Under the pieces are notes generated by a model. That model was not told the origin of the DNA and did not search any database. It was given only the letters and a program-made list of their open reading frames with translations. Shown piece after piece: positions 50,470 to 64,000 of a stretch of DNA of 64,000 bases. Both the position numbers and the translations under genes were made by a program. The first letter of the stretch is position 1; every line of letters begins with the position of its first letter. The DNA is from Catellatospora citrea (GTDB taxonomy: Bacteria; Actinomycetota; Actinomycetes; Mycobacteriales; Micromonosporaceae). The stretch spans positions 186,001 through 250,000 of the forward strand of contig NZ_RAPR01000001.1 in NCBI RefSeq assembly GCF_003610235.1, in the 5' to 3' direction.

Positions 50470-51381
50470 TCAGAGCCGGTCGAAGCGGCGCAGCTGGTCC
50501 CGCAGCGTCCGGGCGACGTGCGCCATCAGCGCCTCGGCTTCGGGCTGCACCGCCGCCGCGACGCTGGACTCGGTCAGCGCCGCAACGGCGAAGGTCTGAC
50601 CGTCGGCGTGCTCGACGACGCCGATCTCATGGCGCAGGTTGAGCAGGGTGCCGGTCTTCGACGACCACACCGAGGCGTCCGAACTGAAATCCGGCGCCAG
50701 ACGGTGGCGCATCACCGTGGCGCCCATCAGCTCGCGTACCCGTTCGGCGACCGCGGTGTGCATGGTCGAAGGCCGCCACAGCGCGTGCAGCAGGTCCACG
50801 AAGGCGCGCGCCGAGCCGGTGTTGGCGCGGGCGATGTCCAACTGCGCGACCGCGTGCCCTCCGGTCGGCGTGGCGCCGGCGATGGCCAGCGAGTGGGCGA
50901 CGTGCACCTCGCCCGGGTCGAGCAGTTCGGCGGGGGTGCTGGCCAGTTCGCGCATCAGGTAGCGGACGCTGATGCCGGCCACGCCGAGCCGCCGCAGCTC
51001 GGCGGTCACCTGCGCGGGCCCGGTGAGTGCCAGCAGCGCGTCGGCGGCCGTGCTGTCGCTGACCGCCACGGCCAGGTAGGCCAGATCCTCGACGGCGAGT
51101 GTCGCGGGGTGCCGGAACCTGGTGAGCCCGGTCGGGCCCGGTGTGCTGACGCGGCCGGGTTGGACGGTGACCGGAGCTGCGGGGTCGAGTTCGCCGCGGG
51201 CGGCGCGTTCCAGCGTGGCCACGGCGATCGGGACCTTCACCAGCGACGCGACCGGCCACACCACGTCCGCGTCGATGCCCATCTCCTGCCCGGAGTCCAG
51301 ATCCCGCACCAGGAACGATCCTCGCAACCCCGCGTCGCGCAGGGCTTCGCGCGCTTCTGCCACGACCGCCGCGTCGTTCAC
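50470..51381 (-). CDS. BlaB-like cytoplasmic beta-lactamase-fold protein
   Basis: A 303-residue class A beta-lactamase-fold protein with SLVK (SxxK), SDS in AVSDSTAAD, and KTG in SKTGTLL. It has no signal peptide, so it stays in the cytoplasm, and no ExxLN glutamate motif is evident. The layout matches Streptomyces cacaoi, where BlaB, a cytoplasmic beta-lactamase-like protein, and BlaA, a LysR activator, control the secreted lactamase gene blaL. Its GTG start overlaps the LysR stop (GTGA, 51378-51381). It probably works as a regulator rather than as a hydrolase; a cryptic serine hydrolase is the alternative. Confidence 0.78.
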   Translation of the reverse strand: MNDAAVVAEAREALRDAGLRGSFLVRDLDSGQEMGIDADVVWPVASLVKVPIAVATLERAARGELDPAAPVTVQPGRVSTPGPTGLTRFRHPATLAVEDLAYLAVAVSDSTAADALLALTGPAQVTAELRRLGVAGISVRYLMRELASTPAELLDPGEVHVAHSLAIAGATPTGGHAVAQLDIARANTGSARAFVDLLHALWRPSTMHTAVAERVRELMGATVMRHRLAPDFSSDASVWSSKTGTLLNLRHEIGVVEHADGQTFAVAALTESSVAAAVQPEAEALMAHVARTLRDQLRRFDRL

Positions 51382-52283: not shown

Positions 52284-52302
52284 CTATGCACGAACAGCAT
52301 GG
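52284..52302. promoter_or_regulatory. Candidate LysR-binding dyad
   Basis: CTATGC (52284-52289) and GCATGG (52297-52302) form an imperfect inverted repeat with a T-N11-A-like core, ten bases upstream of the LysR start and within the divergent promoter region of the beta-lactamase gene. Confidence 0.4.
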
Positions 52303-52449
52303 ATCGGCTCGTTTTCGTCTTTGTCAGCATTCGTTGGGCGATGGGAGGCTCAACGCGCCGCTCCGGGAACGCTGTCGCCCGAACCTGGCGGCTCAGGCGT
52401 CCGGCGTCCCCGGATCGGCGCAGACACCAAACGAGGAAAGGGCACCAAC

Positions 52450-53343
52450 ATGATCATCTCTGTGCGGCGGGCCGCTGCGGCCGCCACGCTCACCTGCCTC
52501 ATCCTCAGCGGCTGCAAGACCACCACGCCCACCACCCCCACGCCCAGCGCTCCGGCGCCCTCGGCTGTCGCCGCCTTCGCGGAGCTGGAGACCCGGTTCG
52601 ACGCCCGGCTGGGGGTGTACGCGATCGACACCGGCACCGGCCGCACCGTCGAGCACCGCGCCGACGAGCGGTTCGCCTACGCCTCCACCTACAAGGCCCT
52701 GGCCGCCGCCGCGGTGCTGGACACCACGACCGCCGAGCAGCTCGACCGCGTCGTCCACTACACCGCCGCCGACCTGGTCACCTATTCGCCGGTCACCGAC
52801 AAGCGCGTGCAGACCGGGATGAGCCTGCGTGAGATCGCCGACGCCGCGGTGCGCTACAGCGACAACACCGCCGGCAACCTGCTGCTGGACCACCTCGGCG
52901 GCCCCGACGGCTTCGAGCGGTCGCTCCGCGGGATCGGCGACCGGACCACCGACGCCGCCCGCCACGAGACCGAACTCAACCAGGCCGCCCCCGGCGACAC
53001 CCGCGACACCAGCACCCCCCGCGCGTTGGCCACCGACCTGCGCGCCTACGCCCTCGGCGACGGCCTGGCCGACGACGACCGCACCGTGCTCAACGACTGG
53101 CTGCGCGGCAACACCACCGGCGCCAAGCTCATCCGCGCCGGCGTCCCGACGGGCTGGCAGGTCGGCGACAAGACCGGAGCCGCCGCCTACGGCACCCGCA
53201 ACGACATCGCCGTCGTCTGGCCCACCGACGGCGCCCCCATCGTCCTGGCCATCCTGTCCAGCCACGACGAGCAGGACGCCACGTACGACGACGCGCTCAT
53301 CGCGCAGGCCGCGGCAGCCGCCGTCACCGCGCTTCGGCCCTGA
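52450..53343 (+). CDS. bla: Class A beta-lactamase, lipoprotein
   Basis: A 297-residue class A serine beta-lactamase. Residues 1-22 are a lipoprotein signal ending in LILSGC, so the mature enzyme is anchored at Cys22. The motifs are all present: STYK (Ser79, Lys82), SDN (137-139), ETELN (Glu173, Asn177, Ambler 166/170) and KTG (241-243). It hydrolyses penicillins and possibly cephalosporins; spectrum cannot be read from this. It faces away from the LysR and BlaB-like genes, which probably control it. A strong hairpin follows the stop. Confidence 0.96.
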
Positions 53344-53415: not shown

Positions 53416-54960
53416 TCAGTTGGTCTTCGCGACCCGGTCGTAGACGATCCGGTCCTCGATCGCCGCGTCGAACGGCGACGGCAGCGTGGCCACGTACTCG
53501 ACCAGGGCGCCGAGCTCGGACCCGTGTCCGACCACCTCGGCGCCGCCCAGCAGCGCCCGGTAGCCGTCGCCGCCGGCGGCGAGAAAGCTGTTCACCGCGA
53601 CCCGGTAGCGTTGGCTAGCGTCGGGTCGGATCGGCGCGCCCCGCTGACCCGCCGGGCCCAGGCGGATCTCGACCACCTCGCCGCCGTGCTCGTCATGCGG
53701 GCGGTAGCGGTAGTGCAGCCCGGACACCGCCAGGTTGCGCCGGAACCGGTGGCGGCGCTGCTGCGCCAGCAGCTCCCAGATCTGCGCGCCGGTCAGCGTG
53801 CAGGAGATCAGATCGTTGCCCGAGGGCAGCACGCCGAACAGGTCGCCCCAGGTGACCGCGCCGGCGGGGATGGCGGCGCGCATGCCGCCGGGATTGGTGA
53901 ACGCCACGTGCGCGCCGGTGGTGGCCCGCATCGCGTCGGCGAGCAGGTTGCCCAGCGGCGACTCCCCGGCGTGCGTGGCCCCGCCGTCGCGTCCGGACAC
54001 CAGGTGCCGCGAGCTGACGGCGACCACGCGGCCGGTCGCTTCGGCGGTCGCGGTGAGGGCGTGGTCGACGATGGCGGCGACGTCGGGCTCCGCCGCCCCG
54101 TCGGCCCACACCGGCACGAGTTCGCCGTCGGCGGTGGCGATGCGTCCGGTGCGCGGGTCCAGCGTGATCCGTACGTCGCAGAACGCGCGCCCGAACGGTG
54201 CGGCCTGCATGACCAGCGTGTTCCCGACGTACGTGTGGATGCTGTGGTGAGTGTGGGCTGCCATCACCACACCGATTTCGGGCAGACTCGCGGCGATCTC
54301 ATTGACCCGGGCGGAAACCTCGCCGCCGGGAAGCGTCTGCTGGTGGCCGCCCTCGTGCAGCAGCAGCACGATCGCGTGCACGCCCTGTGCCCGCAGTTCA
54401 GGCAGGCAGGCGCGCACCGCGTCCACCTCGTCGAGGAAGTCCAGGTCGTCGACGGTCCCGGGGCTGGTCAGCAGAGGCGTGAATCGCACCGTCGCGCCGA
54501 TGAACCCGATCTTCGTGCCGCCGGCAGCGGTGACCAGGTACGGCGGGAACAGGGTGCGGCCGGTGGGTCGGTGCAGGATGTTGGCGCTGATCAAGGGGAA
54601 GTTCTGGCCCTCGAACCCGTCCCCGCCGCGCACCAGGCGCAGGAACTCGGGCAGCCCTGCCCCGAACTCGTGGTTGCCGGGCGTGCCGACCAGCAATCCG
54701 AGCTGGTTGAGCACCCGGATGACCGGCTCGTCGCGCAGCAGTGCGGCTTCGGCGGGGCTGCCGCCGGTCATGTCGCCGGAGTGCACCACGAACGTGGGGC
54801 CCGCGTGCGCGCGCCGGCGCTGCCGGATCATCGCGGCCAGCGTGGCGACCCCGCCGACGGGGCCGGTGCGGCCGGTGTACGGGTCGGTGTAGGCCAGGCC
54901 ACGGCCGGTGAGATGGCCGTGCAGGTCGTTCAGTCCGAGGAGCCGGACCTCGGCGCCCAT
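53416..54960 (-). CDS. UshA-like 5'-nucleotidase/metallophosphoesterase without signal peptide
   Basis: A 514-residue two-domain hydrolase. The N-terminal calcineurin-like domain has NDLHGHL, HSGDMTGGSP, GNHEFG and AAHTHHSIH, giving the two-metal centre. The C-terminal 5'-nucleotidase domain has GDLFGVLPSGNDLIS and FLAAGGDGY for nucleotide binding. UshA and NadN enzymes, normally secreted, hydrolyse nucleotides, UDP-sugars or NAD+. Here the protein begins MGAEVRLLGLNDLHG, with no signal peptide or anchor, so it is probably cytoplasmic. Its ATG follows the ADP-ribosylglycohydrolase fusion gene by three bases, so the two are certainly co-expressed. Confidence 0.9.
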   Translation of the reverse strand: MGAEVRLLGLNDLHGHLTGRGLAYTDPYTGRTGPVGGVATLAAMIRQRRRAHAGPTFVVHSGDMTGGSPAEAALLRDEPVIRVLNQLGLLVGTPGNHEFGAGLPEFLRLVRGGDGFEGQNFPLISANILHRPTGRTLFPPYLVTAAGGTKIGFIGATVRFTPLLTSPGTVDDLDFLDEVDAVRACLPELRAQGVHAIVLLLHEGGHQQTLPGGEVSARVNEIAASLPEIGVVMAAHTHHSIHTYVGNTLVMQAAPFGRAFCDVRITLDPRTGRIATADGELVPVWADGAAEPDVAAIVDHALTATAEATGRVVAVSSRHLVSGRDGGATHAGESPLGNLLADAMRATTGAHVAFTNPGGMRAAIPAGAVTWGDLFGVLPSGNDLISCTLTGAQIWELLAQQRRHRFRRNLAVSGLHYRYRPHDEHGGEVVEIRLGPAGQRGAPIRPDASQRYRVAVNSFLAAGGDGYRALLGGAEVVGHGSELGALVEYVATLPSPFDAAIEDRIVYDRVAKTN

Positions 54961-54963
54961 TGC

Positions 54964-57900
54964 TCAGCGGCCTGCCTGCCGCAGCGCGACCAGCCCTTCA
55001 GCCAGTGCCGCGGTGCGATCGGCGTCCGGGATCTGCAATGCCGACGCATACGGCAGCTGTGTCATGACCTGCTCGCGGCTGTACGCCGCGCCGAGCAGAC
55101 CGCCGGTCATGGCCGCGACGGTGTCGGCGTCGCCGCCCAGTCCGATCGCCGTGACGATCGCCTCCCGCAACGGCTGCCCGGTGTGCACGCAGTACAGCAC
55201 CGCGCTCGCCGTCTCGGCCGGGTCCATGCTCGGCCCGTGGTCCGGCACGGTCCACGTGCCGTCGGCGACCCGGGCCAGCGCGTCCGAGACCGAGGTGGTG
55301 GCTCCGTACGCCTGCGTCGCCTGCGCGGCGGCCTCGATCGCGATCTCCATCAGCAGCGATCGTGAAGCGCCCTCCGCGGCCCACGCGCCACATTCGGCGA
55401 TCACACATGCGGCGACCAGCGCATCCGGGCTGCGGTGCGTGGGTCGGCTCAACTCGGCGACGCGCTCCTGCAGCCGCGCCCGGTCGCCGATGCCGACCGT
55501 CCAGCCGACCGGCAGCGCGCGCATCGCCGCGCCGTTGGTGTTGCCGGCCTGGTCCTGGGCGATCTGCCCGGTCTCGGCGAAATGTGCCACCGCCTTCGTG
55601 GTCGACGGGCCCAGGCCCCGGATCTGGCCGGCGCGCTCGCCCAGCAGTGCGAGGAACCCTTCCGCGCCGCCGTCGCCACTGGTGTTCAGCAGATACTCCC
55701 CGACCAGCAGGGTCAGCGCGGTGTCGTCGGAGGTGGAGCCGATCTCCCAGCCTTCACGGGCGTGCACGGTCTCGATCTCTTCGGTGCTCGCACCCGACGG
55801 GCCCTCCGGGGGGTAGGTCTCGTACGGCAGGCCGAGCGCATCACCGCACGCGTATGCCGTCAGCGAGCCCCCGATCCGCTCGGCGAGGGAGAACACCGTC
55901 TCGGGGTACATCCGCCGCAGCAGCCCGTACCCGTGCGCCGCGACGTCCGCGCGGGCCAGCGCGCCCAGCTCCACTGCCTCCCGCTCCCGGCCCGCCGCTG
56001 CCGCCGCCATGCTCAGCGCGACGCGGGCGTGGGTGATGTCGTAGCGGCACTGCGACTGCGCGAACGAGTCGAGCGCACCGCGGATCAGGTCATAGGCCTG
56101 CCGGACCTCACCCTGCTCCAGCGCCAGCAGTCCCCTGGTCTGCGCGACCTTGGCCCGCTCCAGCGTCTCGCCCAGGCTCGCCGCAAGCTGTTCGGTCTGC
56201 TCGAACAGCTCCACAGCGGCGGCGGTGTCGCCGGCCCGCAGATGGCACATGCCCAGCGCGTGCATGCTGTGCAGCGCGCCGCGGACGTCGGCGACCTCGC
56301 GGCGCTTCTTCAGCGCGGCAGCGTGGATCTCCGTCGCGGTGACGAGATCCCCCCTGGTCAGCGCGACATTGGCCAGGTTGCCCCGGAGCATCGTCTCGAT
56401 CAGCGCGTCCCGCTGCTGTTCGGGCAGCGCCGCGATGAGCGCGAGGCCCTGGCGGTAGTACGTCTCGGCGGCGTCGAGCTCGTCGCGGAAGTAGGAGATC
56501 GCGCCGAGCAGCGCGCAGAGCAGCGCGCTCGGGATCGGCGCGCCGTCGGCGGCGGCCTGCGCCTGCTCGGCGTACTGGCGGGCGTCGTCGAAGTTGCCGA
56601 GGTAGAGCTCGATGTCCCCGATGCGGTGCAGCACGGCGACCCGGTCCACGTCCGGGTCGGCCAACGCCGTACGGGCCGCGGCCAGGGCGCCTTCGAAATC
56701 GCCGCGCACGAAGCACAGCTGCGAACGCAGCAGACAGGTGCCGCTGTCGTCGGGCGGCAGCAGCTGGATGACCTCGTCGGCGCCGGCCCAGTCGCCCAGT
56801 GTGATCAGGGCCCGGCCGAGTCGGGGGCCTATCTCCTCGATTGCCATGTGCGGACGCGCCTTCTGGTAGTAAAACAGTGCGGAGTGGTAGAGACCTTGCT
56901 GCTCCGCGTGGGCAGCCGCCTGCAGCGCCGTTCGTACCATATCCGGCGTGCGTCCAGCGCGCTCGAAATGACCCGCGGCGCTCGCCGGCTGGCCGCGCTC
57001 GTCGAACCACTCCGCCGCCCGCGAGTGCAGGTACTTGCGGGCCGCCGCCCCGAGCTCGCCGTAGACCGCGTTACGCATGATGCCGTGCACGAAGCTGATT
57101 TCCCCCGCCGGTCCCTCCTGAAGGATGCCCAGTTCACAGGCCCTGCGCAGGAGGCGGACCGCTTTGCCCATCGGCGCTTCCATGACATGGAGCACCGCCT
57201 CGATGTCCTGAGACCCGTCGGCGACGACCGCGGCGGCGTCGAGCAGTTCGCGCACGTCCGCGTCGGCGCGCGCGAGCCGCTGGCGGACCACCGCGTCCAG
57301 CCCCGGCGGCAGCTTCAGCACGGCGTCATCGGCGATGGCGCCGTCCGCACCCGTGTCGGAGAGGATGTGCAGGGTCTCCTTGAGGTAGAACGGGTTGCCG
57401 CCGGTGAGCCGGAACACCTGGTCGATCAGCCCTTCGTCGGGCTCACCGCCCAACGCGAGGACCGAACGGACGTACTCTCCGACGTGCGCGCGCTCCAGCG
57501 GCGTCACGGTCACCGCGGCCAGGCCCTCCGTGCCCCACCGCGCCGTCAGCAGCTGGAGATTCGGTGCTTCCCGCAACTGCTCGGACTGCGCCGTCATCAG
57601 CACGAGCACCCTGCGCCCGCGGATCTTGCCGAGCAGGTAGTTCACGAAGTACAGCGTGTCCTGGTCGGCGTCGTGCAGGTCCTCCACCACGAAGCACAGA
57701 CCGTGCCGCTCAGAGATGCCGAGCAGGATGCGGGACAGCTCTTCGTAGATTCCGTCGAGGCTCGCCCCGTACAACGATCTGCTGTCGACCAGCGTTTCAC
57801 CGATCTTGCCGAGGAACGCCCCGATGAACGGGATCGCATCCAGGAGCCGGGGAGCCGCGCTGAGCAGGGTCCGGCGCACCTTGTCCGGGGTGGTCCCGAG

Positions 57901-58197
57901 GTATTCCCGCAGCGCGTCCTTCACCGGCAGCAGCGGCTCCGCGCCGCGGCCCAGGCCGCGCGCCAGGATCGCCACCATCTGCTGCTGTCCGGACTCTCGC
58001 ACCAGCTCGGTGACCAGCCGGGACTTGCCCACTCCCGAGTCGCCCAGCAGCAGCACGGCGTGCCCTCGCCCACCGCCGACGGTCTCCAGGTGGTCACGCA
58101 GCAGTTCGAGTTCGAGCTTGCGATTGACCATCGGCTCGGTGGGCCCGGGCACCGCGGCCGTCGCAGCGCGGCGTCGTCTGCGCCAGAACCAGGCCAT
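54964..58197 (-). CDS. AAA ATPase-TPR-ADP-ribosylglycohydrolase fusion protein
   Basis: A 1077-residue multidomain protein. Residues about 25-330 are an AAA_16-like ATPase with Walker A GDSGVGKS (52-59) and Walker B CFVVEDLHD. Residues about 400-760 are helical TPR-like repeats. Residues about 770-1077 are a DraG/ARH-type ADP-ribosylglycohydrolase with GDALG (785-789), SDDT (823-826) and GGDADT (1021-1026), the metal-binding motifs. The enzyme domain should remove ADP-ribose from proteins or nucleic acids, or cleave a related glycosidic bond. The ATPase-TPR part resembles a STAND-type sensor. The ATG at 58197 follows the SIR2-like gene by 43 bp, and the nucleotidase gene starts 3 bp after its stop. 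A poly-arginine segment (WRRRRRAAT) sits at the N-terminus. Confidence 0.9.
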   Translation of the reverse strand: MAWFWRRRRRAATAAVPGPTEPMVNRKLELELLRDHLETVGGGRGHAVLLLGDSGVGKSRLVTELVRESGQQQMVAILARGLGRGAEPLLPVKDALREYLGTTPDKVRRTLLSAAPRLLDAIPFIGAFLGKIGETLVDSRSLYGASLDGIYEELSRILLGISERHGLCFVVEDLHDADQDTLYFVNYLLGKIRGRRVLVLMTAQSEQLREAPNLQLLTARWGTEGLAAVTVTPLERAHVGEYVRSVLALGGEPDEGLIDQVFRLTGGNPFYLKETLHILSDTGADGAIADDAVLKLPPGLDAVVRQRLARADADVRELLDAAAVVADGSQDIEAVLHVMEAPMGKAVRLLRRACELGILQEGPAGEISFVHGIMRNAVYGELGAAARKYLHSRAAEWFDERGQPASAAGHFERAGRTPDMVRTALQAAAHAEQQGLYHSALFYYQKARPHMAIEEIGPRLGRALITLGDWAGADEVIQLLPPDDSGTCLLRSQLCFVRGDFEGALAAARTALADPDVDRVAVLHRIGDIELYLGNFDDARQYAEQAQAAADGAPIPSALLCALLGAISYFRDELDAAETYYRQGLALIAALPEQQRDALIETMLRGNLANVALTRGDLVTATEIHAAALKKRREVADVRGALHSMHALGMCHLRAGDTAAAVELFEQTEQLAASLGETLERAKVAQTRGLLALEQGEVRQAYDLIRGALDSFAQSQCRYDITHARVALSMAAAAAGREREAVELGALARADVAAHGYGLLRRMYPETVFSLAERIGGSLTAYACGDALGLPYETYPPEGPSGASTEEIETVHAREGWEIGSTSDDTALTLLVGEYLLNTSGDGGAEGFLALLGERAGQIRGLGPSTTKAVAHFAETGQIAQDQAGNTNGAAMRALPVGWTVGIGDRARLQERVAELSRPTHRSPDALVAACVIAECGAWAAEGASRSLLMEIAIEAAAQATQAYGATTSVSDALARVADGTWTVPDHGPSMDPAETASAVLYCVHTGQPLREAIVTAIGLGGDADTVAAMTGGLLGAAYSREQVMTQLPYASALQIPDADRTAALAEGLVALRQAGR

Positions 58198-58240
58198 CGC
58201 GAATCCCCCGCCTATCGGTCCGTGCCCGTCGCCACCGCAC

Positions 58241-60070
58241 TCAAGCGTGGCCCACCGCGGTGGCGCGCACAATACCGGGATGATCCGAATCAGACATCAT
58301 CTCCAGCCTGCTCGCCCACGTTCGCAGGCTGGCCACCTCTGACGCGGTGCGGGGACGCAACGCGGCGCCAGTCGGATCTCCGACAGCACCCATCGCCGCT
58401 GCGAACCCGGTCGCGTCCCGCGCGGTCAGCAGCATCAACGCCCTGGTCAGCTGCACCTCGACCACCCCGGACCGGTTCCCGCGATGAGCGTACGCACGCT
58501 CCACGCCGGCCAGCCGTACGGCAGCGTCCGGCGCCGGCGCCGTGCCGCGCAGCAGCGCCAGCAGCAGGTCAGCTCGCAGCCGCAACAGTTCGAGATCAGA
58601 CTGCCGGGTGACGGTGCCGGCGAGAATCGACCTCCGCCATGCTGCTTCCAGCACCCGGACAGCCGTCCGGGCGACCAGCACAGTCCGCGAGCGACCCGAC
58701 CGTGAGAGCCTGCGTCCCAGCCCCGCTTCGGTGCACCGCGACGCGACGCGGCCGAGGCCGGCCAGCACCCGGATCATCACCCGGAGCCGACCGTGGCCGG
58801 ACAACGCGACCAAGACCGCGCCGGCGCCGCCCGCTGCCGCCGTCAACAGGACCGGCATGGTCGGTGAGTGGTCGGCGCGACACTCGAGCCCGCGCGTGAT
58901 CGCGTAAGCCCGCAAGCCCGCAGGCGTGCTCCGGCCGCGCGACGTCTTGGCGTAGAGCACGGCCGCCTCGGCGAGATCCTCCGGGCCGCCCCGGCGCGCG
59001 AGCGCGTCGGCCAGACGCAGCCGCACCCGGGCCGCCGCGGGCCGCCGCGAGGTGCCCGCCGCGACAGCTCGCAGCACCAGCACGGCTTCGCCGTGGTGGC
59101 CCGCCTCCGACAGCATCCACCCGTACGCCTCCGCTGCCGCAAGCTGCGGCACACAGCGCCACCAGGCGGCGAACCGCTGCGAGAACGGCGGACCGGCAAC
59201 CGCGACCGACGGCCAATCGGGCAGTTCGCCCAACTCCGCCCGCAGCACGTGCTGAGCCGTGCCTCGTCGGGGCTGCTCCGGGTCGACTGCTCGGAGCCGC
59301 GCCGCGACCCTGTCATCGAGTTGCGGAGCGACCCACTCGAATCCGCCCGGCCGGAGCATCGCCTCCAGCGTCTCGAAGACGTCCAGGTCCCTGCCCGAAT
59401 GCCCGATCACCAGCAGGCGTCCGCCCGTCACCGCCTCGGACAGCGCCTCGCGGCGCTCGTCGTCGAGCAGTGTGCACTCCAGATCCTCCATGGTCGGCCG
59501 CAGCGGCACCACCGTGCCGTCGGTGCCGACATCCACCGATCCGCGCAGCTTCACCAGCAGTGGCCGGTGCCCGACGCCACGCGACGCGAAGTCCCGCGGC
59601 GTCGCGATCACGCGCAGCGGCGGCGCATCCGGCATCGCCTCCCGCCACCGGGCCAGTGCCCGCGCGTAGTCGGCCGGCACGTCCGGCGGAAGCTGGGCCC
59701 GCCCCGTGAGCAGCGCGTATGCCAGCTCGATGCCGTTGTCGAAGTTCAAGGTCAGTTGCAGCACGCCGCGCGCCGCCAGCATCGCGCACAGCAGATGATC
59801 CTCCGTGGGCAACCGCACCCGCATGCAGTCGAGCACTGCCGCGACCGTGCCGGAGTCCAGGCAGTCCTCGATGCAGCCCAGGATGTTGCGCCTGCCTCCC
59901 GACGTGAGCAGGCCCAGTCCGGACGTCGCGACAGCGCCACCGGTGATCGCGCTCGCGGCGTCGAAGCAACCGTGGAGAAGGGCGTCGTGGAACTCGTCAC
60001 CCAATGGCAGGTTCGCCGGACTTCCGCGGGAGATCCCGGCGCCGGAGAGCACAGCAGACACAGCAGGCAT
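58241..60070 (-). CDS. SIR2-like domain protein with helical C-terminal region
   Basis: A protein of about 609 residues. The first 240 residues match SIR2-like NAD-binding domains of bacterial defence and signalling proteins: GAGIS (10-14), TLNFDNGIE (Asn109, Asp111) and GHSGRD (223-228). At the KLHG catalytic His position it has KLRG (Arg176), so NADase activity is doubtful. The rest is helical, TPR-like. The ATG at 60070 begins right at the SIR2 fold; the longer in-frame extension would run into the divergent promoter. A TATATT box six bases before the ATG suggests a leaderless transcript. It is first in an operon with the ARH fusion and the nucleotidase. Confidence 0.82.
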   Translation of the reverse strand: MPAVSAVLSGAGISRGSPANLPLGDEFHDALLHGCFDAASAITGGAVATSGLGLLTSGGRRNILGCIEDCLDSGTVAAVLDCMRVRLPTEDHLLCAMLAARGVLQLTLNFDNGIELAYALLTGRAQLPPDVPADYARALARWREAMPDAPPLRVIATPRDFASRGVGHRPLLVKLRGSVDVGTDGTVVPLRPTMEDLECTLLDDERREALSEAVTGGRLLVIGHSGRDLDVFETLEAMLRPGGFEWVAPQLDDRVAARLRAVDPEQPRRGTAQHVLRAELGELPDWPSVAVAGPPFSQRFAAWWRCVPQLAAAEAYGWMLSEAGHHGEAVLVLRAVAAGTSRRPAAARVRLRLADALARRGGPEDLAEAAVLYAKTSRGRSTPAGLRAYAITRGLECRADHSPTMPVLLTAAAGGAGAVLVALSGHGRLRVMIRVLAGLGRVASRCTEAGLGRRLSRSGRSRTVLVARTAVRVLEAAWRRSILAGTVTRQSDLELLRLRADLLLALLRGTAPAPDAAVRLAGVERAYAHRGNRSGVVEVQLTRALMLLTARDATGFAAAMGAVGDPTGAALRPRTASEVASLRTWASRLEMMSDSDHPGIVRATAVGHA

Positions 60071-60084
60071 GTCAGCAATATAAG

Positions 60085-60113
60085 GACTGTCAACGGATCC
60101 TGATTGAACAGTC
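60085..60113. promoter_or_regulatory. Inverted repeat between the SIR2-like and GT20 genes
   Basis: GACTGT (60085-60090) and ACAGTC (60108-60113) are inverted copies; allowing one bulged base, the similarity extends to GACTGTCAA / TTGAACAGTC. It sits in the 104-bp divergent promoter region and could co-regulate both directions. No regulator is encoded beside it. Confidence 0.4.
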
Positions 60114-60174: not shown

Positions 60175-61569
60175 ATGCGCATCGTGACGTGTAGCAATAG
60201 TGCGGTACAGGCGACGGCCGGGGCATCGCCACAACTCGTGCCGGTCTCACCCGGTGGACTGGTGCCCATGGTCGCCGCGCTGATGCGCCACCACGGCGGT
60301 CACTGGGTGTATGTCGGCAACGGCGATCACGCCGACTCGACCACCGTCGCCCTGGCGGGGACCACCACGACCCTGCACGGACACCGCGTCGATGCGCAGT
60401 CGGCCGAGCAGCACGACAGGATTTCGATAGAGGTGCTGCAGTGGCTGATGCACTACCTGCATGATCGCCTCAGCACCCCGATTCTCGACCCGGCGACATG
60501 GGACGCGTGGGGCGGATATCAGAAGGTCAACCTCGACGTCGCCACACGAATGCACGAACTTGCCGGCCCAGCGGACCTGCTCCTGGTCAACGACCACCAG
60601 TTCCTGCTCGTCGGTGGACGGCTACGCGAGCTGCGGCCGACGCATACGGGCCCCATCGTCTACTTCCATCAGACGCCGTGGTGCCAGGCCGACTATTTCA
60701 CCCTGCTGCCCGATCGCGTACGCGCCGAGATCCTCGACAGCCTGCTCGCGTGCGACGTCGTCGGCTTCCACGCGCGCCGCTGGGCGCAGGCGTTCCTGTC
60801 CTGCTGCGCCCGAAACCTGCCAGAGGCCCGTGTCACCGGCGACGACGTCGTCCACCGAGGGCGGCGAACGCGGGTGGTGGCCGCCCCCGGACCGGCCGAC
60901 GCCGCCGCGCTGCAACGGCTGGCCGCCGACCCGCTGACCGAGCGGTGGCGCGACCGGCTCACCGGGCAAGCGCGAGGGCGGCGCATGCTGGTGCGCGCGG
61001 AGCGCATGGATCTGTGGAAGAACGTCGCGGGCGGTCTGCTGGCGTACGAGCACCTGCTGGCGGGCCGGCCGGAACTGGCTCGCGACGTCTGGCACTGCGC
61101 GCTGCTCTCCGCCGTTCGCCGGCCCACCGAGCGGCACCGCAGGTATGAGCAGACGTGCGCGGCGATCGCCGCGCGCATCAACGCGCGGTATGGCGGGGGC
61201 GGTCCCGAGCCGGTGACGCTGCTGTACGCCGAACGCGGCGAGAACACCCAGCACCGTGTCGTCGCGGCGCTCCAGCTGGCCTGCGCGACGCTGGTGAATC
61301 CGACTTTCGACGGGCTCAATCTGGTTGCCAAGGAGTCGCTGCTGGTGAACCCGACGGCCCCGGTCGTGCTCTCGGTGAATGCGGGCGTCTACGACGAGCT
61401 GCGCCCTTACACCTTGGGTGTCGACCCGTTCGACGTCGGCGCCACCGCCGCCGCGCTCGGTCACGCGCTCGACCGCACTCACGAACTGCCGCGCTGGCCG
61501 GGCTCAGCGGCCACCGAATCCGCCGCCGAATGGTGCGCCGCCTTGGTCGGAGAAAGGCACCAGCACTGA
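60175..61569 (+). CDS. GT20-family glycosyltransferase (trehalose-6-phosphate synthase-like)
   Basis: A 464-residue GT-B fold protein of family GT20. Matching elements are LLVNDHQFLLVGGRL (Asp of the OtsA site), YFHQTPWCQADYFTLLP (catalytic His region), DVVGFHARRWAQAFL, RAERMDLWKN (Arg and Lys that hold the donor phosphates) and NPTFDGLNLVAKESLLVN. It belongs to the actinobacterial OtsA-paralogue group that includes the pseudoglycosyltransferase VldE, so trehalose phosphate is not necessarily its product. No phosphatase (otsB) is adjacent. ATG at 60175 has no Shine-Dalgarno. It is divergent from the SIR2-like operon. Confidence 0.82.
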   Translation: MRIVTCSNSAVQATAGASPQLVPVSPGGLVPMVAALMRHHGGHWVYVGNGDHADSTTVALAGTTTTLHGHRVDAQSAEQHDRISIEVLQWLMHYLHDRLSTPILDPATWDAWGGYQKVNLDVATRMHELAGPADLLLVNDHQFLLVGGRLRELRPTHTGPIVYFHQTPWCQADYFTLLPDRVRAEILDSLLACDVVGFHARRWAQAFLSCCARNLPEARVTGDDVVHRGRRTRVVAAPGPADAAALQRLAADPLTERWRDRLTGQARGRRMLVRAERMDLWKNVAGGLLAYEHLLAGRPELARDVWHCALLSAVRRPTERHRRYEQTCAAIAARINARYGGGGPEPVTLLYAERGENTQHRVVAALQLACATLVNPTFDGLNLVAKESLLVNPTAPVVLSVNAGVYDELRPYTLGVDPFDVGATAAALGHALDRTHELPRWPGSAATESAAEWCAALVGERHQH

Positions 61570-61632: not shown

Positions 61633-64000
61633 TCAGCTGTAGACCTCGAACTCGAACAGCGAGTAACCGTAGGCGGTGCCCCGAGCCGTGCCGTTGATCC
61701 GCACGTACCGGCCGGTGGCCCCGAGGGCCGTGTTGTCGTCGACCCCGCCGTTGCCGCCGGTGACCGAACGGACCGTGGTCCAGGTCGTGCCGTTGGCCGA
61801 GGTCTGGATCTGGTACGCCGAACCGTACGCGGCCTCCCAGGTCAACTTGACCCGGTTGATCGCATACGACTGCCCCAGGTCCACCTGGATCCACTGCGGG
61901 TCGGCGAACGCGCTGCCCCACCGGGTGGTCAGCGAGCCGTCGACCGCCGCCGACGCCACGAACGCGCCTTCCACGCTGGATGCGGTGGCGGGCCGGTTCA
62001 GGGCGAGGTTGTTCGTCGGCGGCGGCGGCGGTGCGCCGTCGCCGTAGACCTCGAACTCGAACAGCGAGTAGCCCCACGCGGTGCCGCGGGCCGTGCCGTT
62101 GATCCGCACGTACCGGCCGGTCGCGGTGAGCCCCGTGTTGTCGTCGACCCCGCCGTCACCACCGGTGACCGTGCGTGCCGTCGTCCAGGTCGTGCCGTCG
62201 GCCGAGGTCTGGATCTGGTACGCCGAACCGTACGCGGCCTCCCAGGTCAACTTGACCCGGTTGATCGCATACGACTGACCGAGGTCGACCTGGATCCACT
62301 GCGGGTCGGCGAACGCGCTGCCCCACCGGGTGGTCAGCGAACCGTCGACCGCCGCCGACGCCACGTAGGCCCCCTCGACACTCGACGCCGTCGCCGGACG
62401 GTTGAGGGCGAGGTTGCTCCCCGTCGGCGGCTGGGTGCCGCCGGCGGTGAACGTGAAGTCGTCGATGTCGAACAGCGAGCCGGTGGCGGCGCCGGTGAAC
62501 ACCAGGTACAGCTGTTGCGTTCCGGCCGGCACGGTAACCGTGCCGGTCACGTCGACCCAGGTCTCCCAGCCGCCGGTCGGGGCGACCGGCACCGTGGACA
62601 CGACCGTGCCGGTGGGCGAGCCGACCCGTACGGTCAGCGTGCCACCGACGCCGGCCGAGGCGACCCGCGCCTTGAACCCGGTGACGCCGGTCAGGTTGTA
62701 CGGCGTGAACGAGATCCAGTCGCCGTTCTCGATGTAGCCGACGGCGTTGCCGCCGTGCGCGCTGGCCTTGGCGGCGATCTGGACACCGTTCATCGTGCTG
62801 AAGTGCTCGGCCTGCCGGGTCCTGGGCTGCAGCTGGTGCTGGGCCTGGACCGCGACGCCGGTGGGCGGGGTGTAGACCGCGGCGAGCACCCCGAATATGT
62901 TCGCGGCCGCGTCGTGCTCACCGTCGACCGTGGTCTGGATCGAGCCGGTGCAGCCGGTCTTGCTGGTGATGGGGTGTCCGTGGCTGTCGTGGCCGAGGAC
63001 GTAGTTGAGCACGACCCGGTTGCAGTCGACGGTGCCGACGTTCGGATCGGTGACCCGGATCTCGTAGGGCACCAGGTCACCGAACTGGAACACGGTGCCG
63101 TTGCCCGGGATGACGATCTGGATCCCCGCCCGGCCGACGCCGACGACGACGCTCGCCGTCGAGATCCGGCCGCCGGTGTCCCGCACCGTCAGCGTCGCGG
63201 TGTACTCGCCGTTGGCCGCGTACGTGAACGTCGGGTTGGCCGCGGTCGAGTCGGTGCTGCCGTTGCTGGTGAAGTCCCAGGCGTACGTGATCGCGTCGCC
63301 GTCCGGGTCGTTGCTGCCGGCCGAGCTGAACTGCACGGTCAGCGGTGCCGCGCCGGTGGACGGATTCGCCGCGGCCTGGGCGATCGGCGCCCGGTTGCCG
63401 CCGCTGTTGTACTCGATGCGGTAGACGGCCGAGTTAGCGTCGCCACCGAACCAGGTCGTGCCGTAGTCGAGCACGTACAGGGCGCCGTCCGGCCCGAACT
63501 CCAGGTCCATGATCGCGGTCCCGGACCACGGGATCGGCTCGATCGTGCCGGCGGTGCCGTTGGCGTTGATCGCGGCCGCCTTGATCCAACGGCTGGTGAA
63601 CTCGCCGAGGATGGCCTTGCCGTTGTAGGACGCCGGGAACTTCACGTCGGAGACCAGCGCCGGGTTGAAGTTGTAGACCGGGCCGCCCATCGGGCCGCCG
63701 CCACCCAGCTCGGGCCGCCAGGGTCCCGCGCCGCCGTACGGCAGCCAGGCGGCCTGCGACGGCGGAAGGGTGGTGATGCCCGTGTTGTTGCGCGAGTTGT
63801 TCGTCGGGCCGCCCGCACAGTTGAACAGACCGGCCGACGGACCGCTGGGGAACGTGTACTCGTGGTAGGGGGTGTTGTAGTTCGAGCAGTACGGCCAGCC
63901 GAAGTTGCCCGGCTGGGTGATCCGCTCGAACGCCACCGTGCCCGCCGGCCCCCGGTTAGGGTCGGCGCCGCCGTCGGGGCCGTAGTCACCGAGGTAGACG
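61633..64000 (-). CDS. Secreted sugar-dehydrogenase-like protein with PKD, CBM6-like and two F5/8-type C domains (partial)
   Basis: Only the last 789 codons are in the window; the frame stays open to the right edge. In order, the visible protein has the end of a glucose/sorbosone dehydrogenase-like (PQQ-type) beta-propeller (DYGPDGGADPNRGP, FGWPYCSNYNTPYHEY, FGPDGALYVLDYG), a PKD domain (DPDGDAITYAWDF), a Ser/Thr-rich linker, a CBM6-like domain (IENGDWISF, FDIDDFTF), then two nearly identical F5/8-type C (discoidin) domains, each with LALNRPATASSVEGA and WIQVDLGQSYAINRVKL. It is a secreted carbohydrate-binding and oxidising or hydrolysing protein, often with a ThuA domain at the missing N-terminus. 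Confidence 0.85.
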   Translation of the reverse strand, partial: VYLGDYGPDGGADPNRGPAGTVAFERITQPGNFGWPYCSNYNTPYHEYTFPSGPSAGLFNCAGGPTNNSRNNTGITTLPPSQAAWLPYGGAGPWRPELGGGGPMGGPVYNFNPALVSDVKFPASYNGKAILGEFTSRWIKAAAINANGTAGTIEPIPWSGTAIMDLEFGPDGALYVLDYGTTWFGGDANSAVYRIEYNSGGNRAPIAQAAANPSTGAAPLTVQFSSAGSNDPDGDAITYAWDFTSNGSTDSTAANPTFTYAANGEYTATLTVRDTGGRISTASVVVGVGRAGIQIVIPGNGTVFQFGDLVPYEIRVTDPNVGTVDCNRVVLNYVLGHDSHGHPITSKTGCTGSIQTTVDGEHDAAANIFGVLAAVYTPPTGVAVQAQHQLQPRTRQAEHFSTMNGVQIAAKASAHGGNAVGYIENGDWISFTPYNLTGVTGFKARVASAGVGGTLTVRVGSPTGTVVSTVPVAPTGGWETWVDVTGTVTVPAGTQQLYLVFTGAATGSLFDIDDFTFTAGGTQPPTGSNLALNRPATASSVEGAYVASAAVDGSLTTRWGSAFADPQWIQVDLGQSYAINRVKLTWEAAYGSAYQIQTSADGTTWTTARTVTGGDGGVDDNTGLTATGRYVRINGTARGTAWGYSLFEFEVYGDGAPPPPPTNNLALNRPATASSVEGAFVASAAVDGSLTTRWGSAFADPQWIQVDLGQSYAINRVKLTWEAAYGSAYQIQTSANGTTWTTVRSVTGGNGGVDDNTALGATGRYVRINGTARGTAYGYSLFEFEVYS
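61640..62417 (-). repeat. Tandem duplication of an F5/8-type C domain
   Basis: Two copies of about 372 bp (about 61640-62011 and 62045-62417) are offset by 405 bp and almost identical at the DNA level; a stretch of about 75 bp in the middle is the same in both. Synonymous sites are conserved, which indicates a recent duplication or gene conversion rather than ancient domain repetition. Confidence 0.85.

Follow-up and report, generated by a model that had tools for sequence, protein, structure and literature searches.

The genome of Catellatospora citrea holds a gene for a SIR2-like protein directly beside a gene for a STAND ATPase-TPR protein that ends in an ADP-ribosylglycohydrolase (ARH) domain. 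Both lie in the 64,000-nt stretch analysed here (NZ_RAPR01000001.1, positions 186,001-250,000), which we call the window and whose numbering is used throughout. SIR2 and STAND-TPR-ARH genes form a recurrent, patchily distributed pair. Our preferred reading, held tentatively, is a two-gene conflict or stress module acting on nicotinamide adenine dinucleotide (NAD+) and ADP-ribose, comprised of a SIR2 writer and a STAND-gated ARH eraser, with NAD-recycling accessories. The SIR2-TPR gene (58241..60070, minus strand) encodes 609 aa from an ATG start that fits the SIR2 family alignment (A1). Its SIR2-like domain covers residues 1 to about 289 and its TPR-like helical repeats residues 309-588, approximately. 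By eye, a TATATT motif stands six bases before the start codon (60070-60090) and would suit a leaderless transcript. The STAND/MalT-like AAA ATPase-TPR-ARH gene (54964..58197, minus strand, 1077 aa) follows after 43 bp, and a gene for a 5'-nucleotidase without a signal peptide follows after another 3 bp on the same strand. These three genes are as the earlier note on this DNA described them.

The middle protein of this row contains the Pfam domains AAA_16 and TPR, with Walker A and B motifs ahead of the repeats as in STAND ATPases. The Walker A lysine is present in 24 of 25 aligned rows, and the remaining row is without its N-terminus. The best PDB match of the ATPase-TPR part is the STAND-TPR structure 6mfv (E 3e-11). 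The ARH domain (residues 770-1077; 54967..55890, minus strand) carries the motifs DxxGxxxE, TSDDT, TH and GDxDT, which are kept in all 25 rows (the window protein and 24 of the 120 listed homologues). The metal-site motifs, the TH motif and the fold are thus those of the ARH/DraG family, and the predicted model resembles DraG/ARH3-type structures (2yzw, TMt 0.84). As judged from motifs and model, the protein is a predicted STAND ATPase-TPR protein with a C-terminal ARH output domain whose catalytic motifs are kept.

The SIR2 domain of the window has a predicted Rossmann fold of SIR2 type, which matches the folds of SPARSA, KomC, ThsA and DSR2, and it has one residue of the catalytic Asn and His pair. 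Asn109 (TLNFDN; codon 59744..59746, minus strand) is invariant in the 19 rows of the family alignment. Arg176 (KLRGS; codon 59543..59545, minus strand) stands where ThsA-type SIR2 proteins have their catalytic His, and this position is Arg in 16 of the 19 rows, the window protein among them. The Actinomadura homologue described below, which is outside that alignment, likewise reads KLRGS. The column is taken as the catalytic His because the KLHGD motif in the profile of a second, short SIR2 subfamily (also described below) aligns with the HGD of ThsA and of the SPARSA SIR2. KomC is matched by the same profile over the same range, and PDB titles carry H171 for DSR2 and H146 for KomC. The corresponding residue of ThsA is H152. 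Within A1 the column is secured by the three rows that keep His, all of them SIR2-TPR-adenosine deaminase fusions (Pfam was rerun on two). The exchange of the catalytic His for Arg in most of its family weakens the case for simple NAD+ cleavage by the window SIR2. Some comparisons count against the SIR2 call itself. In an hhalign comparison of A1 with A3 the motifs align while the overall match is weak (probability 2.5%, E 0.018). Foldseek gave no PDB match for the window SIR2 at E < 0.001, and the top rows of the structure comparison are TPR proteins. The three deaminase fusions (P0015, P0017 and P0018) are 950-980 aa long. The deaminase part of P0017 and P0018 matches the PADLOC CARF-ADA effector model, and the fusions recall the pairing of KomA with the SIR2 protein KomC in Kongming.

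The earlier note had proposed a search for the same neighbourhood outside this lineage, and adjacent SIR2 and STAND-TPR-ARH genes do recur there, in Actinomadura craniellae and in four loci with a different ATPase. Of 77 loci obtained by scanning genome contigs, five (L032-L036) have a full-length STAND-TPR-ARH gene. At the A. craniellae locus (L032), a SIR2 homologue of 44% identity is convergent with and adjoins the STAND-TPR-ARH gene. A profile search found no A1-type SIR2 in the genomes of L033-L036. L034-L036 have flanking genes in common (L034 represented by L169); a serine recombinase is near L034 and a GntR/UTRA regulator is beside L035. The family of the Actinomadura genome (297 genomes) contains 33 genomes with matches to the middle protein at 1e-60: two are full-length and of the window type, ten have a different N-terminal ATPase with the same TPR-ARH, and 21 cover the ARH part. 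In four of the ten (G683, G784, G656 and G711; L159-L162), a short SIR2 gene and the ARH gene share 4 bp, an overlap of the same size as that between a short SIR2 gene and a shortened TPR-ARH gene in G350 (L119). The short SIR2 proteins keep both Asn and His (5/5). They match the PADLOC candidate PDC-S65 at 2e-49 to 3e-55 (7e-50 to 3e-55 for four of them), and the Pfam SIR2_2 cut-off is passed by two of three tested (L159 and L161), the one of L115/L119 falling just below. No SIR2 was detected at the other six of the ten loci.

Other relatives of the middle protein have other neighbours. A gene for a PfkB-family kinase overlaps the STAND-TPR-ARH gene in L165 and L166 and is fused to it in L168, and L118 too has an adjacent or fused PfkB (L168:6595-10794, L165:6148-10387, L166:6485-10724, L118:7324-11563). 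L118, from Nonomuraea and apparently the same locus as L165, is near RepSA, FtsK, integrase and GntR genes of pSAM2 type; L118, L165 and L166 all adjoin pSAM2-like integrative element genes. The G693 copy of STAND-ARH looks interrupted. Called neighbours of the ARH-only proteins L003, L112-L114, L116 and L117 include no SIR2 by eye. The ARH gene and a glycosyltransferase gene diverge in L159-L162, and in L119 the glycosyltransferase gene is upstream. It accompanies the short SIR2 in L159-L162, L119 and L223 and also in G625, and the scanned protein matches Glyco_transf_4 below cut-off.

Among nine genomes with a clear SIR2 and a visible locus, the ARH gene adjoins the SIR2 gene in eight (the window genome, G591, G350, G623, G656, G683, G711 and G784), the exception being G625. 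G623, found with the short SIR2, has a fragmentary STAND-TPR-ARH and the start of a SIR2 at a contig end. In the other direction, SIR2 adjoins STAND-TPR-ARH at 7 of 17 loci (the window, L032-L036, the ten loci with a different ATPase and G623). In a database of 5.8 billion proteins, the SIR2 has 18 homologues and the middle protein 343 relatives, of which 120 are listed. Five of the 18 are on contigs equal in size to that of a listed ARH homologue (568878, 8569, 7655, 14416 and 19096), which suggests linkage and is no proof of it. The other 13 include five on contigs shorter than 5 kb, and the fusions P0017 and P0018, on long contigs, have no size match.

The NAD+ theme of the earlier note gained support from a gene that it had not mentioned, even as simple NAD+ cleavage lost ground. 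By the TIGR00482 profile, five of these genomes (G591, G683, G784, G656 and G711) contain two copies of NadD, and in all five the second copy adjoins the SIR2 gene. At 1e-20, 242 of 250 family genomes match this profile and six have two copies, namely the five and G698. The two G698 genes are equally long and agree over their first 90 residues; they look like an assembly duplicate and were treated as one. The SIR2-side copies form their own clade (FastTree support 1.000, 11 sequences), sharing 52-58% identity with the housekeeping NadD and 62-85% with one another. A distinct second NadD is therefore present in 5 of 7 SIR2-positive genomes and absent from the remaining 243 (Fisher p 2.7e-9, a value that ignores relatedness). 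The seven leave out the weaker SIR2 matches G739, G783, G853 and G883; with the two of them that belong to the 250 genomes added, the counts are 5/9 and 0/241. The A1 profile was run in this family on the L032-L036 genomes and the members of the class sample, which leaves room for an A1-type SIR2 in part of the 243. L032 is the most telling case for the NadD link because its SIR2 and its ATPase are of the other type.

The pair is rare. Among 11 genomes of the genus, its SIR2 gene is present in the window genome alone, and its profile matches two of 394 class genomes, full-length in the window genome and partially (positions 8-117, E 1e-11) in a distant one (G312, L109). A housekeeping locus is rejected on these counts, and the presence and absence variation that the earlier note had expected of a non-housekeeping set is borne out for the pair. 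The STAND-TPR-ARH profile at 1e-80 matches seven of the 394 genomes; the match in the window genome extends over the full length, while the other six span the ARH part. At 0.001, 191 of 200 genomes of the window genome's own family match the middle protein, and among the matches listed those from other genomes are restricted to the ATPase/TPR or the ARH part. The presence counts of these class- and family-level surveys are lower bounds, as 2-8 first-look candidates were scored per genome. Viral contigs gave no relative of the SIR2 (A1) or of the middle protein (A2). In PLSDB plasmids no relative of the SIR2 was found; the middle protein had two partial matches there, of which one is to a record of 11.8 Mb. 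A defence island around the pair was looked for and not found: in a PADLOC scan at 1e-10 of 47 other window proteins (46 of 54 called genes and the LysR gene, with five called open reading frames set aside) there was no clear defence gene, and HTH_VI was the single match (3.5e-13). The three operon proteins, compared with PADLOC as well, gave weak SIR2-Argonaute and TPR matches.

From these data we infer a possible order of events. The SIR2 protein would place ADP-ribose on a target at the expense of NAD+, the ARH domain would take it off again, and the STAND-TPR part would switch the eraser when it senses its trigger. The accessories would process or restore NAD-derived nucleotides; candidates are the window's cytoplasmic nucleotidase, the additional NadD of some relatives and, in relatives without SIR2, the PfkB kinase. 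The pair would then behave as a regulated writer and eraser or as a toxin and antidote set. The logic of toxin and antidote is suggested because a SIR2 rarely lacks its ARH, while STAND-ARH often lacks a SIR2. The writer and eraser assignment is favoured by two precedents. SirTM carries Gln where the catalytic His would be and is an ADP-ribosyltransferase whose action is reversed by a macrodomain from its operon (PMC4518038). ARH enzymes release ADP-ribose from proteins, and O-acetyl-ADP-ribose is a further substrate of ARH3 (PMC7050489). The module as such is supported by the fact that the pairing is found in differing arrangements and with two SIR2 subfamilies. Several observations weigh against the writer and eraser reading. 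No target of ADP-ribosylation is evident in the operon. The short-SIR2 subfamily, with Asn and His both retained, matches the NADases ThsA, SPARSA and KomC, and for that branch NAD+ cleavage would be as likely. G625, found with the short SIR2, has SIR2 and the glycosyltransferase with no ARH seen, and the proportion of SIR2 genes with an ARH falls from 8/9 to 8/13 when G739, G783, G853 and G883 are added, which are weaker matches to the short SIR2 in longer open frames (E 5e-34 to 6e-44, 603-919 codons) with no ARH in the fetched stretches around them. The window genome, G623 and G625 have one NadD each. G656, G711 and G784 are close relatives (NadD identity 77-85%), so that the independent evidence for a second NadD is nearer two or three events than five.

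NAD+-depleting phage defence is a close rival to the writer and eraser reading, although we consider it somewhat unlikely. The SIR2 protein would be a NADase effector of abortive infection and the STAND-TPR-ARH protein a phage sensor or regulator that possibly clears signals derived from ADP-ribose, with NadD or the nucleotidase aiding recovery or deepening depletion. All the proteins that the SIR2 fold matches (SPARSA, KomC, ThsA and DSR2) are NADase defence proteins, four short SIR2s match PDC-S65, STAND with SIR2 is the layout of Avs5, and the distribution is patchy and partly mobile. The Arg in place of the catalytic His in the window's SIR2 family argues against it, as do the scanned window proteins with no clear defence gene, the absence of relatives of either protein from viral contigs and the absence of the SIR2 from PLSDB. 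Regulation of NAD+ and nucleoside salvage is a quite improbable alternative. The ARH domain would cleave small NAD-derived or nucleoside substrates, the nucleotidase, PfkB or NadD would serve salvage under the control of a MalT-like STAND switch, and the SIR2 protein would sense NAD+ or ADP-ribose. Each of the differing partners (NadD; PfkB in L118, L165, L166 and L168; the nucleotidase) plausibly has a NAD or nucleoside metabolite as its substrate, and an Arg-for-His exchange could leave binding without catalysis. Rarity and patchiness are, however, unlike salvage genes, overlaps of 4 bp between the SIR2 and ARH genes point to coupled partners, and STAND gating would be unusual for salvage.

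A more specific version of the preferred reading, which we regard as doubtful, is an undescribed immune or conflict module in which STAND gates an eraser set against an Arg-substituted sirtuin writer and several lineages carry NadD to survive the expenditure of NAD+. Searches of open-licence papers showed no description of a SIR2 and STAND-TPR-ARH pair or of NadD beside SIR2, which is a weak negative. To our knowledge, the SIR2 defence systems described to date spend NAD+ without an encoded way back. If the writer and eraser reading is true, the pair would be a reversible NAD+/ADP-ribose response that links SIR2 to an eraser under an ATPase switch, with an extra NadD in five relatives. It would also become testable whether defence-type SIR2 proteins without the His write ADP-ribose instead of destroying NAD+.

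A partial likeness is to the SirTM-macrodomain operons (PMC4518038), in which a sirtuin fold without the catalytic His is likewise encoded next to an ADP-ribosyl hydrolase gene. The eraser of the window differs in being an ARH fused to STAND-TPR and not a macrodomain, and the residue is Arg and not Gln. The window SIR2, moreover, matches the SIR2_2 or defence type and carries TPRs. The extended SirTM operons contain the macrodomain and GcvH-L/LplA2; the seven genes scanned around the window pair (SIR2, STAND-ARH, nucleotidase, GT20, LysR and two beta-lactamase-like proteins) include no macrodomain partner, GcvH-L or LplA. The ARG-centred conflict systems (PMC9503650) were chosen for the absence of sirtuins and ADP-ribosyltransferases and likewise join an ARH domain with phosphatases, including calcineurin-like ones, in hosts including actinobacteria. 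They are often found with Nudix or WYL regulators, while the window has an adjacent SIR2 and an ARH fused to a STAND ATPase. ThsA, SPARSA, DSR2 and KomC share the SIR2 fold, and the short-SIR2 branch keeps their Asn and His, whereas the window branch has Arg for His and its partner is STAND-TPR-ARH. Kongming (KomABC) combines an adenosine deaminase and KomB with the SIR2 protein KomC. No deaminase is among the seven genes scanned, although 3 of the SIR2's 18 homologues carry such a domain as a fusion. Avs5 is a SIR2-STAND protein; here SIR2 and STAND are two separate polypeptides with a C-terminal ARH output domain. MalT/LAL regulators share the AAA_16-TPR layout with a further C-terminal domain, which is a DNA-binding domain of LuxR type in those regulators and ARH here.

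The nucleotidase (53416..54960, minus strand, 514 aa; UshA/NadN superfamily) has both the metallophosphatase and the 5_nucleotid_C domain. It retains, by eye, the metal-binding motifs of UshA, and it differs from the exported UshA/NadN enzymes in having no export signal. Nine of 11 nucleotidase paralogue genes called in congeners have a leader-like N-terminal stretch, unlike the window gene. The nucleotidase of this locus is found in the genus in the window genome alone, and other congeners hold paralogues of 38-42% identity. The nucleotidase adjoins the pair only in the window genome and in none of the relatives tested: tblastn gave no match in L032-L036 or L223-L231 and blastp none among the called genes of L159-L169. 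The listing of nucleotidase homologues, 120 of 1017 with the longest contig per cluster, includes none of the five contig sizes shared by SIR2 and ARH. On these searches a conserved three-gene system is rejected, and with it the proposal of the earlier note that the three genes are one unit. There is an even chance that the nucleotidase is a fortuitous or lineage-specific neighbour, perhaps co-transcribed and functionally outside the module, which is compatible with each of the readings above. The missing homologues in relatives favour this; its place 3 bp from the ARH gene on the same strand and the missing leader speak against it, as does the occurrence of calcineurin-like phosphatases next to ARG domains (PMC9503650).

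A GT20 (OtsA-like) glycosyltransferase gene is divergent from the SIR2 gene (60268..61569, plus strand), and its membership of the module is uncertain. At an E limit of 1e-60 it is matched in one of 11 genomes of the genus, that of the window. It is unrelated to the glycosyltransferase of the relatives, yet occupies the equivalent divergent position. Immediately downstream of the operon are a lipoprotein-like class A beta-lactamase (52300-53343; NCBIfam bla_class_A above cut-off), and a second serine hydrolase of Beta-lactamase2 type with a LysR regulator (50470-51381). Beyond the GT20 gene, positions 61633-63999 encode part of a large, probably secreted protein that runs past the end of the window and presumably contains PKD-like and discoidin-like repeats.

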